This document shows, piece by piece, positions 7,159 to 49,599 of a DNA stretch of 64,000 nucleotides. The notes under the pieces were generated by a model. It had not been told where the DNA came from. It worked only from the letters and a program-made list of their open reading frames with translations, and searched no databases. Every line of letters begins with the position of its first letter. Position 1 is the stretch's first letter. This DNA comes from Candidatus Binataceae bacterium (lineage in GTDB: Bacteria; Desulfobacterota; Binatia; Binatales; Binataceae): positions 1 to 64,000 of the forward strand of contig DATGHL010000012.1 of the NCBI GenBank assembly GCA_035308025.1, read 5' to 3'. A program made the translations under genes and the position numbers.

Positions 7159-8757
7159 GTGACTCAGCACTTTGATGCTATCGTAATCGGTGGCGGCGTG
7201 TCTGGCCTGTACGCTCTTTATAAACTCCGCCAACTCGGCGTCTCGGCACGGGTGTTCGAGGCCGGCAGCGATATCGGCGGCACCTGGTACTGGAATCGCT
7301 ACCCGGGCGCCCGTTTCGACTCTGAGAGCTATACCTACCAATATTCCTTCTCCCAGGAATTGTTAGAGGAATGGAAGTGGAGCGAGCATTTCTCGGGCCA
7401 GCCGGAAATTGAACGGTATTTGCATTTTGTCGCGGACAAATTCGATCTCAAACGCGACATTGAGTGCAACGCGCGCGTTGCGACCGTCATGTATGACGAA
7501 GCTGACAAGAGGTGGGAGATTGAGACTCACAACGGTGTGCGCGCATCTGCCCGCTACGTCATCTGCGCCACCGGGCTGCTTTCGGCGCATCAGTTTCCGG
7601 ACTATGAGGGGGTTCAAGACTTCGCCGGCCTGTCGCTGCACAGTGCACGCTGGCCAAAAGCGCCGGTCGACTTCACTGGCAAGCGAGTCGGGATCATCGG
7701 CAGCGGCCCGACGGGCGTCCAGATCATTCAGACAATTGCCCCCGACTGTGAACAGCTGACAGTTTTTCAGCGCACCGCGAATTGGTGCACCCCGCTCCGC
7801 AACCGTCCGATTACCGCGGAGGAACAACGAGCGCTCAACGAAAAGGCACATGAGATTTTCGCACTGTGCAAACGCACCTGGGCCGGCTTCATTCACGAAC
7901 CGGACCCGCGCGCCGCGATGGACGTGCCGAAAGAGGAGCGCCTAGCCCGCTATCAGGAGTTGTACGACCGCGGCGGGTTCGCATTGTGGCTGGGCAATTA
8001 CCGTGACTCCTTTATGTCACAGGACGCCGCGGATGAGGTTGCCGAGTTCCTCGCCACCAAGATCCGCGAACGCGTCACCAATCCCGAGGTAGCCGAAAAA
8101 CTAATTCCGAAGCACACGTTTGGCACGAAGCGGTGTCCCGGAGAGAAGAATTACTACGAGACGTTCAATCGCAACAATGTCAGATTGGTTGATTTGCGCG
8201 AAACGCCGATCAAGAAGATTATCCCCGCCGGAATCGAAACCGGTAACGAGTTACACGAACTCGATGTGATTATTTATGCTACGGGCTTTCATAGCGTGAC
8301 GGGTGAGCTCCTGCGTATGGATATTCGCGGTCAGCACGGTCGATCCCTGCAAGAGCATTGGTCCGACGGGCCAAGAACCAATCTCGGCGTTCAGTTCTCG
8401 GGCTTCCCAAACCTGTGGGCCATCATGGGGCCGCACAACCCAGCGGTGTTTTGCAATATCACCCGCTGCGTCGAGACCAACGTCGAGTGGATCGTCGATT
8501 GTATCCGTTATATGCGCGAGAATGGTTTCGAGACCATGACCACAACCCCCGAAGCCGAAGATGCATGGACCAAACGCTGCTATGAATCGGCCAAAGGGTT
8601 GTTAATCAATGAGATGAAGGATTCATGGTTCTTCGGTAGCACCAATCCCGAGAACGTGCGCGGCCGCTTCCTATTATTCGCTGGTGGCGTGCCACTCTAT
8701 CGTGAGATCTTCGCCGACGTTGCTGCGAAGGGCTATGAAGGCTTCGAACTGCGCTAG
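7159..8757 (+). CDS. Type I Baeyer-Villiger monooxygenase (flavin, NADPH)
   Basis: This 532-residue flavoprotein should insert oxygen next to a ketone, giving an ester or lactone. It has an FAD Rossmann motif (IGGGVSG, residues 10-16), the type I Baeyer-Villiger fingerprint FAGLSLHSARWP at 155-166 (F.G...H...WP), and an NADPH Rossmann motif (IGSGPTG, 180-186). GGTWYWNRYPGARFD after the FAD motif is typical of cyclohexanone-type enzymes. Start is GTG 7159 with GGAGG 9 bases before. Length matches cyclic-ketone monooxygenases. Its G+C looks lower than the genes around it, which hints at acquisition. It lies downstream of marR and upstream of a luciferase-like monooxygenase and an acyl-CoA dehydrogenase. 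Confidence 0.92.
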   Translation: MTQHFDAIVIGGGVSGLYALYKLRQLGVSARVFEAGSDIGGTWYWNRYPGARFDSESYTYQYSFSQELLEEWKWSEHFSGQPEIERYLHFVADKFDLKRDIECNARVATVMYDEADKRWEIETHNGVRASARYVICATGLLSAHQFPDYEGVQDFAGLSLHSARWPKAPVDFTGKRVGIIGSGPTGVQIIQTIAPDCEQLTVFQRTANWCTPLRNRPITAEEQRALNEKAHEIFALCKRTWAGFIHEPDPRAAMDVPKEERLARYQELYDRGGFALWLGNYRDSFMSQDAADEVAEFLATKIRERVTNPEVAEKLIPKHTFGTKRCPGEKNYYETFNRNNVRLVDLRETPIKKIIPAGIETGNELHELDVIIYATGFHSVTGELLRMDIRGQHGRSLQEHWSDGPRTNLGVQFSGFPNLWAIMGPHNPAVFCNITRCVETNVEWIVDCIRYMRENGFETMTTTPEAEDAWTKRCYESAKGLLINEMKDSWFFGSTNPENVRGRFLLFAGGVPLYREIFADVAAKGYEGFELR

Positions 8758-8834
8758 GTGCTGTCTCTGAGTTAAGGAACATCCGGTCAAGAACCCACCA
8801 AACCCCGCCGCTAGGGTGGTAATCGTTCCGGCGC

Positions 8835-8864
8835 AGCTAACTGAGTCTGGCGAAGCTAACTGAG
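8835..8864 (+). repeat. Direct repeat AGCTAACTGAG ahead of the luciferase-like gene
   Basis: The 11-base word AGCTAACTGAG occurs at 8835-8845 and again at 8854-8864, 19 bases apart start to start, just before the ribosome site of the gene at 8877. The second copy abuts GGAGG, so the pair might serve a regulator or simply be a duplication that copied part of the leader. Nothing else is evident in the 119 bases between the two genes. Confidence 0.45.
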
Positions 8865-8876
8865 GAGGAATCGAAA

Positions 8877-10112
8877 ATGAAGTTCATCTACTTTTTCCTG
8901 CCGACGCTGCCCGCGACGCTCGCGGAGCGCAAACAGCTCCGGCCGATCGCGATGCATCCCGATCGCTGGCAAAAAATGATCGAAGAAGTAGTTGAGCTGA
9001 GCCAGTTGGCGGAAGACGTCGGTTTCGAGGCGGTCTCATATCCTGAGCATCATCTGCACAGCGAAGGGATCGAGATGGGCAGCCTGCCGCTGCTGACGCA
9101 GCACATCCTGAACCACACCAAGCGGATTAAGGCCGGGCCGATCGGTTACGTGCTGCCGGGCTGGAATCCGCTGCGGCTAGCGCTGGAGATCGCATGGCTC
9201 GATCAATTGACGAAAGGGCGCACGATCGTCGGCTTCGCGCGCGGCTATCAGGCGCGCTGGCTCAATCAAATGGCGCAGAAGGTTCACGTCGGCGCCACCA
9301 TGAGCGACAAGAGCGAGACCGATCGCATCAATCGCGAGGTCTTCGAGGAGGTCTATCAGTTCCTCAAGCTGGCGTGGGGTGACGAGCCATTTCGCTTTAA
9401 CGGCAAGCACTATCAGTATCCGACGCCGCAGGAGGGCACTCCGTGGCCGGCGGCCGAGTGGACGCGCGAGTATGGCTTTCCGGGCGAGGTCGATGCTCAG
9501 GGTCGCATCCAGATGATCAACGTCGTGCCGAAGCCCTATCAGCGGCCCCATCCGCCGCTGTTTCAAGCGTTTTCGCTGAGCGAAGAGACGGTGCGCTGGT
9601 GCGCGCGCGAGGGGATTCGTCCGACGATCATCCTGCCGCAGCCGGAGACCGTGCGGAAGCTCGGCGAGGCCTACGTCGAGGAGGCTACCAAGGCCGGACG
9701 CGGCCCGATGAAGGTCGGCCAGAATATCGGCGTCCTGCGCGGCATCTACCTCGGCGACAGTCTCGCGCAGGCCAAGCAGATAGCGGAACCGGGGATGTGC
9801 GTACTCGGCTATCGCGAGGTCTTCCATCACTTCGGCTTTACTGAAGCCTGGCGCGAACCGGCTGATGAGGCGAAATATCCTGCTGGCAAAGTTCCGCTGC
9901 CGGCGTCGGAGGTTACTGCCGATCGCGCCGCACGCGTGAAGTCCGCCTACATGGGAACTGTGGACGACGTGCGGCGCGGGCTCGACGAGTTGGTCGAGGT
10001 GGCCAATCCCGAATACTTCGTGTGGCAGGGCGATCAGGGGTTCATGCCGAAAGATGTCGTCAAGCGACAGATCGAGCTGTTCGGCGAAAAGCTGCTGCCG
10101 CGCTACGCCTGA
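8877..10112 (+). CDS. LLM-class (luciferase-like) flavin-dependent oxidoreductase
   Basis: A 411-residue TIM-barrel monooxygenase of the bacterial luciferase superfamily, which uses reduced flavin supplied by a separate reductase. Seen are MKFIYFFLPTLP at the first strand, SYPEHHLHSEG near 54 (the E-H-H flavin-proximal motif of the class), IKAGPIGYVLPGWNPLRLALE, and IVGFARGYQARWLNQ. The start ATG 8877 has GAGGAGG 9 bases before it. The next gene, an acyl-CoA dehydrogenase, begins 15 bases after its stop, so the two are almost certainly co-transcribed. Proteins of this type are common in soil bacteria that degrade terpenoid, alkane or sulfur compounds; the actual substrate cannot be told from sequence. 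Confidence 0.9.
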   Translation: MKFIYFFLPTLPATLAERKQLRPIAMHPDRWQKMIEEVVELSQLAEDVGFEAVSYPEHHLHSEGIEMGSLPLLTQHILNHTKRIKAGPIGYVLPGWNPLRLALEIAWLDQLTKGRTIVGFARGYQARWLNQMAQKVHVGATMSDKSETDRINREVFEEVYQFLKLAWGDEPFRFNGKHYQYPTPQEGTPWPAAEWTREYGFPGEVDAQGRIQMINVVPKPYQRPHPPLFQAFSLSEETVRWCAREGIRPTIILPQPETVRKLGEAYVEEATKAGRGPMKVGQNIGVLRGIYLGDSLAQAKQIAEPGMCVLGYREVFHHFGFTEAWREPADEAKYPAGKVPLPASEVTADRAARVKSAYMGTVDDVRRGLDELVEVANPEYFVWQGDQGFMPKDVVKRQIELFGEKLLPRYA

Positions 10113-43959: not shown

Positions 43960-44928
43960 TCAGAGACTGACGGTTTCGGCGATCCAGATCGCGCTCAGCG
44001 CCGCCAGCCGCGCCGCGTCGAAGACGCACCAAATCGCCACGCCCGCCGGTGTGACCGTCAGCTTTGCGATCACCGCTTCCTGCGCAGCCGCATCGACAAA
44101 GCTCGAGGCCTCACCGCTCTCGACCAGGATTATGCCCGGCGCGGCGCGGAGCTGCGCCGCCCATTGCGAAGTCTCCGCAGCGAGCGGGAGAAATAGCGCC
44201 ACCGCGGCGCCGAGAAAGGCCGGAACCTCGGCGATCTGAATGTTGAGGCCGGGGCCGCCGTCCAGCAACGTCGCGACTTGCGCGGCGATGGCTGCGGCGA
44301 GCGCATCGGCCGCGGGCGGGATGAAAACGTTGAAAGCGGTTTGACTCTCTTCTTCGCCCAGTTGGAGCCGCGCGTTCAGCAACTCCGCCGACTGGTTGAA
44401 AAGGCGGCTAAGTCCTTCGCGGCCGCGGCTGCTGGCAGCGAACAGAACCGTCGCAGCAGCGAAGCCGGAAGGAATTTCGAGTGCCTTGAGGATCGTCGCG
44501 ATGACCTGCGCGCTCGGATGCGGTATGCCTATCACACCCGGCTTTTTCATGCCGGTGATCCGCTCGCGCGGAGTAAGGCCCGGCGCAGCTAGCGCCAGCG
44601 CATTGAGCGGCTGCTGCGAGGCCGCGCTCAGATCGATCAGGATCGGTCCCGGCCGCGCTGCGATGATCTCCGCCGCGCGTTCCGCCGGAATTGCCAGAAA
44701 CACGATGTCGAACTCCGCAAGCTCATTGATCGCCGCGAGCTCCGCCACCGGCAGCGTCTCGCGTCCTGATTCGACCCCTTCCGCGTCGGCGCTGCCCGCA
44801 GCGCCAAAGAGCTTCAACTCGGCGTGAGTGACGTCGCGCTGGCCGATCAACTCTGCGATTTGAACTCCGACCGTGCCGCGCGCGCCGACCAGCGCGATTC
44901 GCGAGCGGGAGCCGCTACGCTCCGCCAT
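43960..44928 (-). CDS. usg: Usg-like, catalytically degenerate aspartate-semialdehyde dehydrogenase homologue
   Basis: A 322-residue protein with the aspartate-semialdehyde dehydrogenase fold: a Rossmann start IALVGARGTVGVQIAELIGQ (11-30), IVFLAIPAERAAEII, LIDLSAASQQPLNALALAAPG, and NQSAELLNARLQLGEEESQTAFNVFIPP. True enzymes have the nucleophilic Cys in PNCST after the GVIG/VIAN strand; here the place reads GVIGIPHPSAQVIATI (131-146), with no Cys. E. coli Usg, next to truA, shows the same loss. The ATG overlaps the leuB stop as TGATG, indicating translational coupling. A structural or truA-operon role is likely, and a separate real asd is needed elsewhere. Confidence 0.82.
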   Translation of the reverse strand: MAERSGSRSRIALVGARGTVGVQIAELIGQRDVTHAELKLFGAAGSADAEGVESGRETLPVAELAAINELAEFDIVFLAIPAERAAEIIAARPGPILIDLSAASQQPLNALALAAPGLTPRERITGMKKPGVIGIPHPSAQVIATILKALEIPSGFAAATVLFAASSRGREGLSRLFNQSAELLNARLQLGEEESQTAFNVFIPPAADALAAAIAAQVATLLDGGPGLNIQIAEVPAFLGAAVALFLPLAAETSQWAAQLRAAPGIILVESGEASSFVDAAAQEAVIAKLTVTPAGVAIWCVFDAARLAALSAIWIAETVSL

Positions 44929-46164: not shown

Positions 46165-47733
46165 TCAAGGCCCGACGCGCGGAGTCTGGGCGCCCGCGCG
46201 GCCGCGCGCCTCGAGCCGATTGAGCGCATTCACGAGCGCCAGCGCACTCGCCATCACGATATCGCTGTGGGCGCCCTGACCCGCCACCGTCATTCCATCC
46301 TCGCGAATCAGGCACGAGACTTCGCCGAGCGCGTCAGTGCCGCCGGTGATCGATTTCACGGCGTAGCGCTCGAGCGTCGGATTGATGCGGGCGATTTTGT
46401 AAATCGCCTTGTAGCAGGCATCCACCATACCGTCGCCAGTCGCCTCGGCGCCGCGCTCCTCGCCGCTGACACGGAGCCTCACCGCCGCGCGCGGCTCACT
46501 GGTGCTTGACGAGCTCACCTGCAGATCGACCAGCTCGAAAGTCTCAGCCGTGCGCCGCTCCTCGTTGGCCATCGCCAGGATGTCGTCGTCGTAAACAATT
46601 TTCTTTTTGTCGCACAGCGCCTTGAAGGCCGCGAAAGCCTTCTCTACGTCGAGCGCCGCGGTATCGACCCCCAGCTCCTGCAGCCGGTTGATAAAGGCGT
46701 GACGCCCCGAATGCTTGCCCAGCACCAGCTTGTTCGACGGTATCCCGATGTCCTCGGGCTTCATGATCTCGTAGGTCAGCTTGTTCTTGAGCACGCCATC
46801 CTGATGGATTCCGGCCTCGTGGGCAAAGGCATTGTCGCCCACGATCGGCTTGTTCGGCGGCACCGCCTGCCCGATGATCTGCGCGAGCAGACGCGAGGTC
46901 GGATAGATCTGGCGGGTCTCGATCCCGCAGCGCACGCCCATCAGATCCCGGCGCGTCTTGAGCGCCATCACCACCTCTTCCATCGAGGTGTTGCCGGCGC
47001 GCTCGCCGATCCCGTTGACCGTGCATTCGACCTGGCGCACGCCGTGGCTGATCGCCGCGAGCGAATTGGCCACCGCCAGCCCGAGGTCGTTATGACAGTG
47101 CGCGCTCCAGATAACCTTGTCCGCGCCCTCGACGTGCGCGCGCATGTAATCGAACATCTCGCCGTATTCGGTCGGGATCGCATGGCCGGTGGTATCCGGC
47201 AGATTGACGATCCGCGCGCCGGCGCGAATCACTTCGGTGCAAATCTTGGCCATGAAATCCCAGTCGCTGCGCGAGGCGTCTTCGCACGAAAACTCGACGT
47301 GGTCCACATGCTCCCTGGCGCGTTTCACTGCCCAGGTCGCGGCGTCGAGCACGTCCTCGCGCGTCATGTTGAGCTTGTATTTCATGTGGATATCTGACGT
47401 CGCGATAAAAATATGGACGCCCGGGCGCTTCGCCTTCTCGACCGCCCGCAAGGCCGCATCGACGTCCTCTTCGCGCGTGCGCGCGAGACTCAGGATAGTC
47501 GGATTGGTCAACGCCTCGGCGATCCGCCGGACCGCTTCAAAATCGCCCGGCGACGACGCCGCGAAGCCGGCTTCGATAATGTCGACGTTGAGCCGCTCGA
47601 GTTGGCGCGCGATCGCGATCTTCTCCTCGACATTCATCGTGCAGCCCGGCGATTGTTCGCCGTCGCGCAGCGTGGTGTCGAAAATCCTGACCTGATTCGG
47701 GTCGAAGCCGTTAATCGAATCCGCGAAAGCCAT
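46165..47733 (-). CDS. leuA: 2-isopropylmalate synthase
   Basis: A 522-residue enzyme that condenses acetyl-CoA with 2-ketoisovalerate, the first leucine-specific step. The catalytic TIM barrel begins [20 protein letters not shown], contains the metal site around [21 protein letters not shown], and [39 protein letters not shown] and [18 protein letters not shown] form the subdomain; the C-terminal leucine-binding regulatory domain includes [39 protein letters not shown]-like blocks. ATG 47733 is used, with GGAG 10 bases before; the longer frame to 47838 overlaps the attenuator. A leucine-rich leader peptide and terminator lie upstream. Confidence 0.96.
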
Positions 47734-47845
47734 CGTTATTTTTCTCCGTCTGCTCGCCCCCGTCCTGCAGTTGCCCGCCACGTTGGGTCGAAGTTCCTCT
47801 GCCCGCAGCTTCGGGTCGGCGAGGCGCTGGGGCAGCAAATGAAAA

Positions 47846-47884
47846 ACGCCTCAGGCGGCTCGGTCGGCCCGGCGCCTGGGGCGT
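47846..47884 (-). terminator. Attenuator terminator upstream of leuA
   Basis: On the minus strand ACGCCCCAGGCG (47884-47873) can pair with CGCCTGAGGCGT (47857-47846) across a 15-base loop with one mismatch, followed by TTTTTC. It lies between the leader-peptide stop (47918) and the leuA start, the usual place for an attenuator terminator. Confidence 0.65.
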
Positions 47885-47917
47885 TCGTTCTACAGTTTCA
47901 AGCCTTTCAGTCTTTGG

Positions 47918-48001
47918 TTAGGCTTGCACCTCGACGCCCGCGGCGTGGGCCCCCGTAAGGGCCAGAATAAGCAGCAGTCCGAGATGCGAGCGTGTGACCA
48001 T
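47918..48001 (-). CDS. leuL: Leucine-rich leader peptide of the leuA attenuator
   Basis: A 27-codon frame from ATG 48001 to TAA 47918 encodes MVTRSHLGLLLILALTG and a short tail. Six of nine successive codons (LGLLLILAL) specify leucine, as in the leader peptides that sense leucyl-tRNA charging. A hairpin terminator follows, and a promoter precedes at once. It could instead be read as a tiny secreted peptide, because it looks like a signal sequence, but position and context favour attenuation. No clear ribosome site exists; the transcript may start within a few bases of the ATG, so translation could be nearly leaderless. Confidence 0.6.
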   Translation of the reverse strand: MVTRSHLGLLLILALTGAHAAGVEVQA

Positions 48002-48009
48002 CGTCAGTG

Positions 48010-48039
48010 AATCTAACCGCCCCCGCCTGTCGCAGTCAA
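48010..48039 (-). promoter_or_regulatory. Probable leuA leader promoter
   Basis: TTGACT (48039-48034) and TAGATT (48015-48010) are separated by 18 bases on the minus strand, in the 61 bases between the pssA stop and the leader ATG. Initiation about 7 bases on would fall almost at the leader start codon. This gives leuA a promoter of its own inside the longer ilv-pss run. Confidence 0.5.
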
Positions 48040-48062: not shown

Positions 48063-48938
48063 TCACGACACCGACTTGCCACTTGGGGCACCGCCTGCCG
48101 GAGGGTCACCCGGTTTCGCGTTCGACGGGTCTGGGGCGAGTTCGATGCGTTCGCCGCGGAGCCACATGAACGGGCCCGACAGCACATAGGCCGTGGCCAG
48201 GACGAAGGTCGTGAACTGCGGCATCGCAATCAACATCGCGGCGATCAGCAACACGAGCAGCATCAGTTCCAATGGTGCGCGGCGGCGGATGTCGATCCCC
48301 TTGAAGCTCGGATAGGGCACCCGCGAGACCATCAGGCCCGCCAAGGCGAGCGTCACCGGCGCAATCACCGCGCACAAAGTTCGCGGAGAATTCAGCTCGA
48401 AATAGCTGTAGGCGAGCACGACCCCGGCGATCATTCCGGCGGCGCCCGGCACCGGCAAGCCGACGAAGCGCCGCTTATCGATGCTGCCGGTCTGCACGTT
48501 GAAGCGCGCCAGCCGCAGCGCGCCGGCGATCACATAGAGTCCACTGATTACGGCGCCCACGCCGCCGAGCGGACGCATCGCCCAGGCATAGGTAAGGATC
48601 GCCGGCGCAGCGCCAAAGGCGACCACGTCCGACAGGCTGTCCAGTTCGATCCCGAACTGGCTGGACGAGCGGGAGAGCCGCGCCACACGCCCGTCGAGTC
48701 CGTCGCAGATGAAGGCCAGCGCAATCATCACTGCGGCCACCTCGAAATGCGCGTCGATCGAGGAAATCATCGAGTAGAAGCCGGCCAGCAGCCCGAGCGA
48801 GGTGATCGTCGCCGGCACCACGAAGACTCCGCGCCGCGGCGGAGTCACTGCCGGCCGGGGCTTTTCCAGCAGCCGGCCCGAAATCAGTTGCAGCCGCGCG
48901 ACATGCTCGTCGCCCGGCGCCGCGCCGTCAGTTGCCAT
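48063..48938 (-). CDS. pssA: CDP-diacylglycerol--serine O-phosphatidyltransferase
   Basis: An integral membrane enzyme of about 291 residues that makes phosphatidylserine. The CDP-alcohol phosphotransferase motif D-G-x2-A-R-x8-G-x3-D-x3-D is met exactly by DGRVARLSRSSSQFGIELDS followed by LSD. Several helices follow (GAVISGLYVIAGALRLARF and C-terminal pairs). The Pro-rich, Gly-rich tail is probably cytoplasmic. ATG 48938 overlaps the end of psd by 11 bases, so the two consecutive steps of phosphatidylethanolamine synthesis are translationally coupled. A TTG start at 48947 is possible. Confidence 0.94.
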   Translation of the reverse strand: MATDGAAPGDEHVARLQLISGRLLEKPRPAVTPPRRGVFVVPATITSLGLLAGFYSMISSIDAHFEVAAVMIALAFICDGLDGRVARLSRSSSQFGIELDSLSDVVAFGAAPAILTYAWAMRPLGGVGAVISGLYVIAGALRLARFNVQTGSIDKRRFVGLPVPGAAGMIAGVVLAYSYFELNSPRTLCAVIAPVTLALAGLMVSRVPYPSFKGIDIRRRAPLELMLLVLLIAAMLIAMPQFTTFVLATAYVLSGPFMWLRGERIELAPDPSNAKPGDPPAGGAPSGKSVS

Positions 48939-49599
48939 TTTGTCCAAGCTCCCCGATCACGCTCTCACCGGCGCGCACCCGCTCGCCGACTTTGACCGCC
49001 ACCCGGTAGTCGAGCGGAAAGTAATGGTCAACGCGGCTGCCGAACATGATCAAGCCGACCCGCTGTCCGCGCTCAACCCGTTCGTCGCGCCGCACCCGGC
49101 AGACGATCCGGCGGGCGAGATAGCCTGCAATCTGCACGATCGCGTGGCGCCGTCCGCCGCGGTCGGCAAAGAGGATTACATTACGCTCGTTGTGCTCGTT
49201 GGCGTCGTCGCGAAAGGCCGCGCGGAACTCTCCCGCCGTATGCTCGATCCCGACGATCGCGCCGCTCACCGGCGCGCGATTGACGTGGACGTTAAGCGGC
49301 GACATAAACACTGCGACGCGGCGTGATCTCGAGGCTTCCCCGACAGTGCCTGGAATCGTGGCATCACTGATGTCGCAGACCTTGCCGTCAGCCGCGGAGA
49401 TCACGGCATCCGCATCCGCGACCGCCCGCCGCTCCGGATCGCGGAAAAAGGCCCCGACGGCGCCGGCAAGCGCCAGCACGAGCACTCCCAGCCATCCCCA
49501 TCCGAGGATCAGTGCGCCGATTCCCACAATCGCTATACCGAGCGTGATCGTGGCGCCTTCGGGCGCAATATGCAGAATCGATGCGGTCCGCGCGATCAC
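48928..49599 (-). CDS. psd: Phosphatidylserine decarboxylase, short (Psd-A) type
   Basis: A 223-residue proenzyme that self-cleaves to form a pyruvoyl group and turns phosphatidylserine into phosphatidylethanolamine. The cleavage site is Gly-Ser in VGLIMFGSRVDHYFPLDY, near the C-terminus. VFMSPLNVHVNRAPVSGAI, with the conserved histidine region, and GEFRAAFRDDANEHNERN are further family blocks. A hydrophobic N-terminal segment (ITLGIAIVGIGALILGWGWL) anchors it in the membrane. It precedes pssA with an overlap and follows ilvC by 38 bases. This pairing with branched-chain genes is known from deltaproteobacterial genomes. Confidence 0.94.
   Translation of the reverse strand: MIARTASILHIAPEGATITLGIAIVGIGALILGWGWLGVLVLALAGAVGAFFRDPERRAVADADAVISAADGKVCDISDATIPGTVGEASRSRRVAVFMSPLNVHVNRAPVSGAIVGIEHTAGEFRAAFRDDANEHNERNVILFADRGGRRHAIVQIAGYLARRIVCRVRRDERVERGQRVGLIMFGSRVDHYFPLDYRVAVKVGERVRAGESVIGELGQNGN

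Follow-up and report, generated by a model that had tools for sequence, protein, structure and literature searches.

How leuA is controlled in the Binataceae is a question raised by the DNA that separates this gene from its upstream neighbour, pssA, in one genome of the family (phylum Binatota), that of an uncultured soil bacterium. The window analyzed is a 64,000-nucleotide stretch on contig C12 of a 3.6-Mb assembly, and the closest named relatives of its leuA come from Candidatus Binataceae and from bins labelled Deltaproteobacteria or Proteobacteria. After the stop codon of pssA, about 24 nt upstream of the -35 box, the minus strand carries in order a -35 box, a -10 box, a short leader open reading frame (ORF) with its TAA, a G+C-rich hairpin, TTTTT and leuA. 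An initial annotation had listed the same set from the sequence, namely a promoter TTGACT-N18-TAGATT, a 27-codon ORF with the run LGLLLILAL, a stop, a stem with a T-run and then leuA, and all of these elements are in place (Table 1). We consider it very likely that together they form a ribosome-mediated transcription attenuator of leuA that senses charged leucyl-tRNA, with a leader translated without a Shine-Dalgarno sequence from a near-leaderless start. Downstream of leuA follow leuB and an asd-like gene, both probably under the same attenuator. The asd-like gene (window positions 43960-44928) scores 73 bits against 284, far under every aspartate-semialdehyde dehydrogenase cut-off, and may be a divergent paralogue.

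Table 1. Positions of the leader, its RNA segments and the neighbouring genes in the window, with one trpE locus.
Feature	Position	Strand	Basis or remark
pssA, upstream neighbour, same direction	48063..48947	-	TIGR00473 above cut-off
-35 box TTGACT	48034..48039	-	sequence read and simple promoter scan; TTGAC in 73/74 leaders
-10 box TAGATT, spacer 18 nt	48010..48015	-	sequence read, promoter scan, relatives
Predicted transcription start, at or 0-3 nt before leader ATG	48001..48004	-	usual -10 to +1 distance; spacing conserved
Leader peptide ORF, 27 codons + TAA, MVTRSHLGLLLILALTGAHAAGVEVQA	47918..48001	-	sequence; kept in 39/39 Binataceae leuA genes
Control codons CTC GGA CTG CTG CTT ATT CTG GCC CTT	47957..47983	-	leader codon alignment
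Segment 1, GGCCCU, within last Leu codons	47958..47963	-	swap test, helix tests, masked folding
Segment 2, GGGGCCCACGCC, pairs with segment 1 or segment 3	47942..47953	-	covariation, swaps, masked folding
GGGCGUC, can lengthen the antiterminator via GAACGCCC at the terminator base	47933..47939	-	weak co-evolution signal
Segment 3, AACGCCCCAGGCGCCGGGCC, terminator 5' arm and upper part	47866..47885	-	covariation
Segment 4, CGCCUGAGGCGUU, terminator 3' arm	47845..47857	-	covariation
Terminator T-run TTTTT	47842..47846	-	sequence
leuA Shine-Dalgarno GGAG	47744..47747	-	sequence; leuA ATG at 47733
leuA, 2-isopropylmalate synthase, regulated gene	46165..47733	-	NF002086 and TIGR00973 above cut-off
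trpE locus L231	G000:C3, upstream of trpE 8544-9932		Trp-rich leader

In the mechanism proposed here, RNA polymerase would begin transcription at the leader ATG or no more than about four bases away from it, and such a start implies that the leader is translated without a Shine-Dalgarno sequence. When leucine is short, the ribosome would stall in CTG CTG CTT ATT CTG and cover segment 1, leaving segment 2, which lies inside the leader ORF, free to pair with segment 3, the terminator's upper 5' arm, so that leuA would be transcribed. When leucine is plentiful, the ribosome would reach the stop codon, segments 1 and 2 would pair (1:2), segments 3 and 4 would form the terminator (3:4) and transcription would stop.

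The leader is rich both in leucine and in an uncommon leucine codon. Leucine accounts for 27% of leader residues, whereas its codons are 10.9% of all those in nine window genes, and CTT makes up 26% of the leucine codons in leaders versus 7% in nine window genes. Two CTT codons are conserved, at 47971-47969 in 27 of 34 aligned leaders and at 47959-47957 in 31 of the 34. In the Binataceae the peptide has a hydrophobic core and an AxA-like motif, which would suit a small secreted or membrane peptide (signal-peptide-like, its cleavage motif being AHA-A) that works as a protein, with the terminator marking only where its gene ends. We regard this reading as highly improbable, since outside the Binataceae (e.g., MWSSVKNTFLAELLLRSPSVGSAVV) the signal-peptide-like shape is lost while the leucine run is kept, since third codon positions are conserved at RNA segments 1 and 2 (entropy of about 0.5 bit, versus 1.3 in codons 2-8), and since leader codons covary with downstream non-coding sequence, as described below. 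A further role in trans for the terminated RNA or the leader peptide, as reported for Sinorhizobium rnTrpL/peTrpL, is very unlikely: the layout, a small RNA that is leaderless, terminated and carries an ORF, is indeed that of S. meliloti trpL (PMC7298713), but the peptide outside the leucine run is poorly conserved between families.

The start of the leader was predicted from its promoter, which a simple scan called where 0.1 would be expected in shuffled sequence. Of the window's 1,492 ATGs, counted on the two strands together, a promoter score of at least 13 at a distance of 5-11 nt upstream is found at one only, the leader ATG, with 13.8; at a lower bar, 2 of 51 ordinary window ORFs have such geometry. 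Eight bases separate the -10 box from the leader ATG (48001). Transcription usually begins 6-8 nt after the -10 box, which gives the leader a predicted 5' untranslated region of about 0-4 nt. The initial annotation had placed the transcription start near the leader ATG and supposed that leader translation may begin without a ribosome-binding site, and relatives agree with both points. Among 74 leaders (39 from Binataceae and 35 from other families, the latter chosen for a visible leader), 58 have a gap of 5-11 nt between the end of the best promoter's -10 box and the start codon downstream of it, against 8.4% in shuffled sequence, and in several of the exceptions (L022, L031, L113, L120) the distance is right for an ATG or GTG start further upstream. 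GGAGG or AGGAG occurs in the 18 nt upstream of the start in none of the 74 leaders, and a duplex measure finds a strong Shine-Dalgarno at 93% of leuA starts; it scores whichever start is best around the expected position, which biases it toward finding one. The 20 nt before the window leader reach -5.5 kcal against the anti-Shine-Dalgarno, but lie almost wholly upstream of the predicted transcription start; a 16S rRNA from which the anti-Shine-Dalgarno could be read was not found in this assembly. The near-leaderless spacing is, on these comparisons, conserved and not an accident of one genome, and translation of the leader ORF seems to begin right at the 5' end of an RNA whose start is predicted.

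The attenuator could also be real and its leader not leaderless, with transcripts starting further upstream (for example, by read-through from ilvC-psd-pssA), the leader translated by another route and the promoter spacing incidental. The orientation of pssA, the same as that of leuA, and the short distance from its end to the -35 box speak for such read-through. This is unlikely, however, as the promoter is among the best conserved parts of the element (TTGAC in 73 of 74 leaders), its distance to the start codon is held across families, no Shine-Dalgarno lies upstream of the leader, and similar geometry recurs in 16 of 31 trpE leaders.

The leader RNA of the window folds far better than dinucleotide shuffles (z = -4.3). 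A simple terminator scan called none at the locus, because its loop limit is eight bases and the loop here is longer; the arms at 47885-47873 and 47857-47845 pair at 12 of 13 positions. Helices were examined in an RNA alignment of 36 Binataceae leaders by shuffle, swap and Fisher tests that take no account of relatedness. In that alignment the terminator helix 3:4 has 96.5% of cells paired and six pairs changed on both sides, a result that 0 of 500 shuffles reach. In the antiterminator helix 2:3 the leader codons GGG GCC CAC GCC pair with the terminator's upper arm, and because this helix overlaps the 5' arm of 3:4 the two are mutually exclusive. Helix 2:3 is 93.9% paired, and its covariation score is matched by 0 of 500 shuffles and stands far above every slid version. 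Double changes in 2:3 convert A-U to U-A or G-C and C-G to G-C, so that CAC/GUG is replaced by CUC/GAG, CAG/CUG or CGU/GCG. The initial annotation had read the locus as leucine attenuation and had proposed comparing leader and hairpins across relatives, with a lack of covariation speaking against it; compensatory changes were found, stem and antiterminator covary, and leucine codons and promoter are kept in relatives.

Pairing of segments 1 and 2 is also supported, by a different kind of evidence. With the helix held in a fixed register no pair is changed on both sides, and that test was dropped in favor of register-shift and swap tests. The own-species fit of the two segments beats the between-species fit, with 7 of 2000 swaps as good, and the register shifts in step, GGC going with A and GCC with G (Fisher p = 1.4e-4). 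Control pairings showed no co-evolution, as expected: 908 of 2000 swaps were as good for segment 1 with segment 3, and 1442 of 2000 for segment 1 with the terminator base. A pairing of GGGCGUC with GAACGCCC had been considered as the main antiterminator; its signal is weak (199 of 2000 swaps as good) and it is kept as a possible extension. In other families, whose sequences were left unaligned, the 3' part of the leader on average fits its own downstream hairpin best, with 0 of 5000 reassignments as good.

Whether the position of a ribosome could switch these helices was examined by masked folding. The mask for the ribosome footprint was assumed to cover 15 nt upstream of the P site and 12 nt from the A site. 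With the ribosome at CUU11 of the window leader and the RNA extended as far as segment 3, helix 2:3 has 9.0 pairs and helix 1:2 has 0.1; with the mask at CUG13, 2:3 again has about nine pairs and 1:2 almost none. At the stop codon the values are 0.02 pairs of 2:3 and 5.8 of 1:2, a clean switch in the window sequence that follows the logic of a classical attenuator. All 36 aligned sequences form 2:3 under the stall mask. The stop-codon mask gives clean 1:2 without 2:3 in 13 of the 36, which makes the off-state less uniform than the on-state, and part of it must therefore depend on kinetics or on protection of neighbouring bases by the ribosome at the stop codon. In most cases the complete terminator has greater stability than the alternative fold, stalled states included, and antitermination must thus be co-transcriptional.

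A Leu-rich leader precedes leuA in 39 of 39 Binataceae leuA genes examined, from genomes with a usable leuA, and is also found in ten other families of the class (f4, f5, f8, f9, f10, f11, f95, f96, f97 and f98). Three families, f2, f7 and f12, are without it, and in these the frame of pssA continues to a terminator-like hairpin; family f6, for which the evidence is poor, stands outside both lists. The hairpin of f2, f7 and f12 lends something to the idea that the leuA hairpin is an unregulated terminator serving simply to insulate leuA from pssA, yet a Leu-rich ORF and a covarying alternative pairing would have no role in a plain insulator, and we give this idea hardly any credence beside attenuation. 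At ten loci of those three families (L116, L122-L124, L128, L157, L158, L172, L176 and L177) a conserved hairpin, CTCCCG..CGGGAGTTTTT, was noted just before leuA.

Non-Binataceae leaders such as L120, L126, L127 and L173 often show, by eye, two hairpins, of which the second is the terminator; its 5' arm is complementary to the 3' arm of the first, and such pairing would add a layer to the switch outside the Binataceae. Among 48 leuA relatives from other phyla essentially no Leu leaders were seen, with six weak candidates. In one of these relatives, a Gemmataceae leuA (L094), a short ORF, MNDLLRLPLLLPPS, lies about 146 bases before the leuA match and is possibly an independent Leu leader.

Leucine may not be the only amino acid sensed in this fashion. 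A Trp-rich leader ORF (e.g., MDRVNGIDWAGWRWCVNALACAPGS) stands before 31 of 31 Binataceae trpE genes examined; the promoter is 5-11 nt before its start in 16 of the 31, a strong Shine-Dalgarno is present in 3 of the 31, and a terminator-like hairpin follows at all four trpE loci read out. No leaders were seen before the main ilvB and hisG. Upstream of a second ilvB-like gene (L218, G009:C51) there is an ORF, MFPACDNVLSESRDLGLILVVVVVLTEAVAP, that is possibly an Ile/Leu/Val leader. Taken across the Binatia, these leaders might reflect a habit of leaderless attenuation, in which Leu, Trp and perhaps ilv leaders would all begin at the RNA 5' end, coupling of RNA polymerase with the ribosome would exist from the first base, and leuA would respond to two inputs, leucyl-tRNA and the state of the initiation machinery (70S leaderless initiation). 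We offer this wider reading tentatively and with more doubt than confidence. If it were true, read-through RNA from pssA, without a Shine-Dalgarno for the leader, would be terminated by default.

Rfam gave no match in the window at gathering score, T-box included, and no leucine leader at E values up to 5; a search of the literature on Binatota and attenuation found no paper on such an attenuator. The element appears to be an undescribed amino-acid attenuator family in an uncultured phylum, class-wide in the sense that most of the class conserves it. Its leader and promoter geometry across some ten families is a natural data set for the translation of leaders that lack a Shine-Dalgarno, and leucine and tryptophan regulation would be expected in these organisms, which metagenomes alone represent here.

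The enterobacterial leu attenuator (leuL) has a promoter, a leader ORF with Leu codons, alternative 1:2, 2:3 and 3:4 hairpins, a terminator and then leuA. The Binataceae element has the same order and likewise places uncommon leucine codons in its control run, CTT here and CUA among those of leuL (PMC1183508). Unlike leuL, its leader is predicted to have a near-zero 5' untranslated region and no Shine-Dalgarno, and its segment 2 is part of the leader ORF, with a pairing partner in the terminator's upper arm and loop.

Both leucine attenuation and leaderless leaders of attenuators have precedents in other bacteria. The initial annotation called the near-leaderless leader unusual; it is uncommon, but it is not new. 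The attenuator RNA of S. meliloti trpL (rnTrpL) starts at the leader ATG (PMC7298713), although trpL senses Trp, has a 14-amino acid leader and belongs to a different phylum. Streptomyces leuL1 (before leuA) and leuL2 (before leuS) are short Leu-rich leaders that are transcribed leaderless, and leuL1 is without a typical terminator (PMC8079986). The Binataceae leader resembles leuL1 in being short, Leu-rich, placed before leuA and, as predicted, leaderless. For the actinobacterial leuA LEU element a pseudoknot has been proposed, in which the Leu codon run pairs with the leuA Shine-Dalgarno (PMC1262725); the Binataceae element differs from this and from leuL1 in having an intrinsic terminator and a covarying antiterminator. 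In C. glutamicum the leuA leader has four consecutive Leu codons, and the ilvBNC leader forms without a ribosome binding site, according to the title of Morbach et al. 2000 (cited in PMC4046766, as is the leuA leader). These leader peptides, too, precede branched-chain genes, a likeness by description only and from another phylum.
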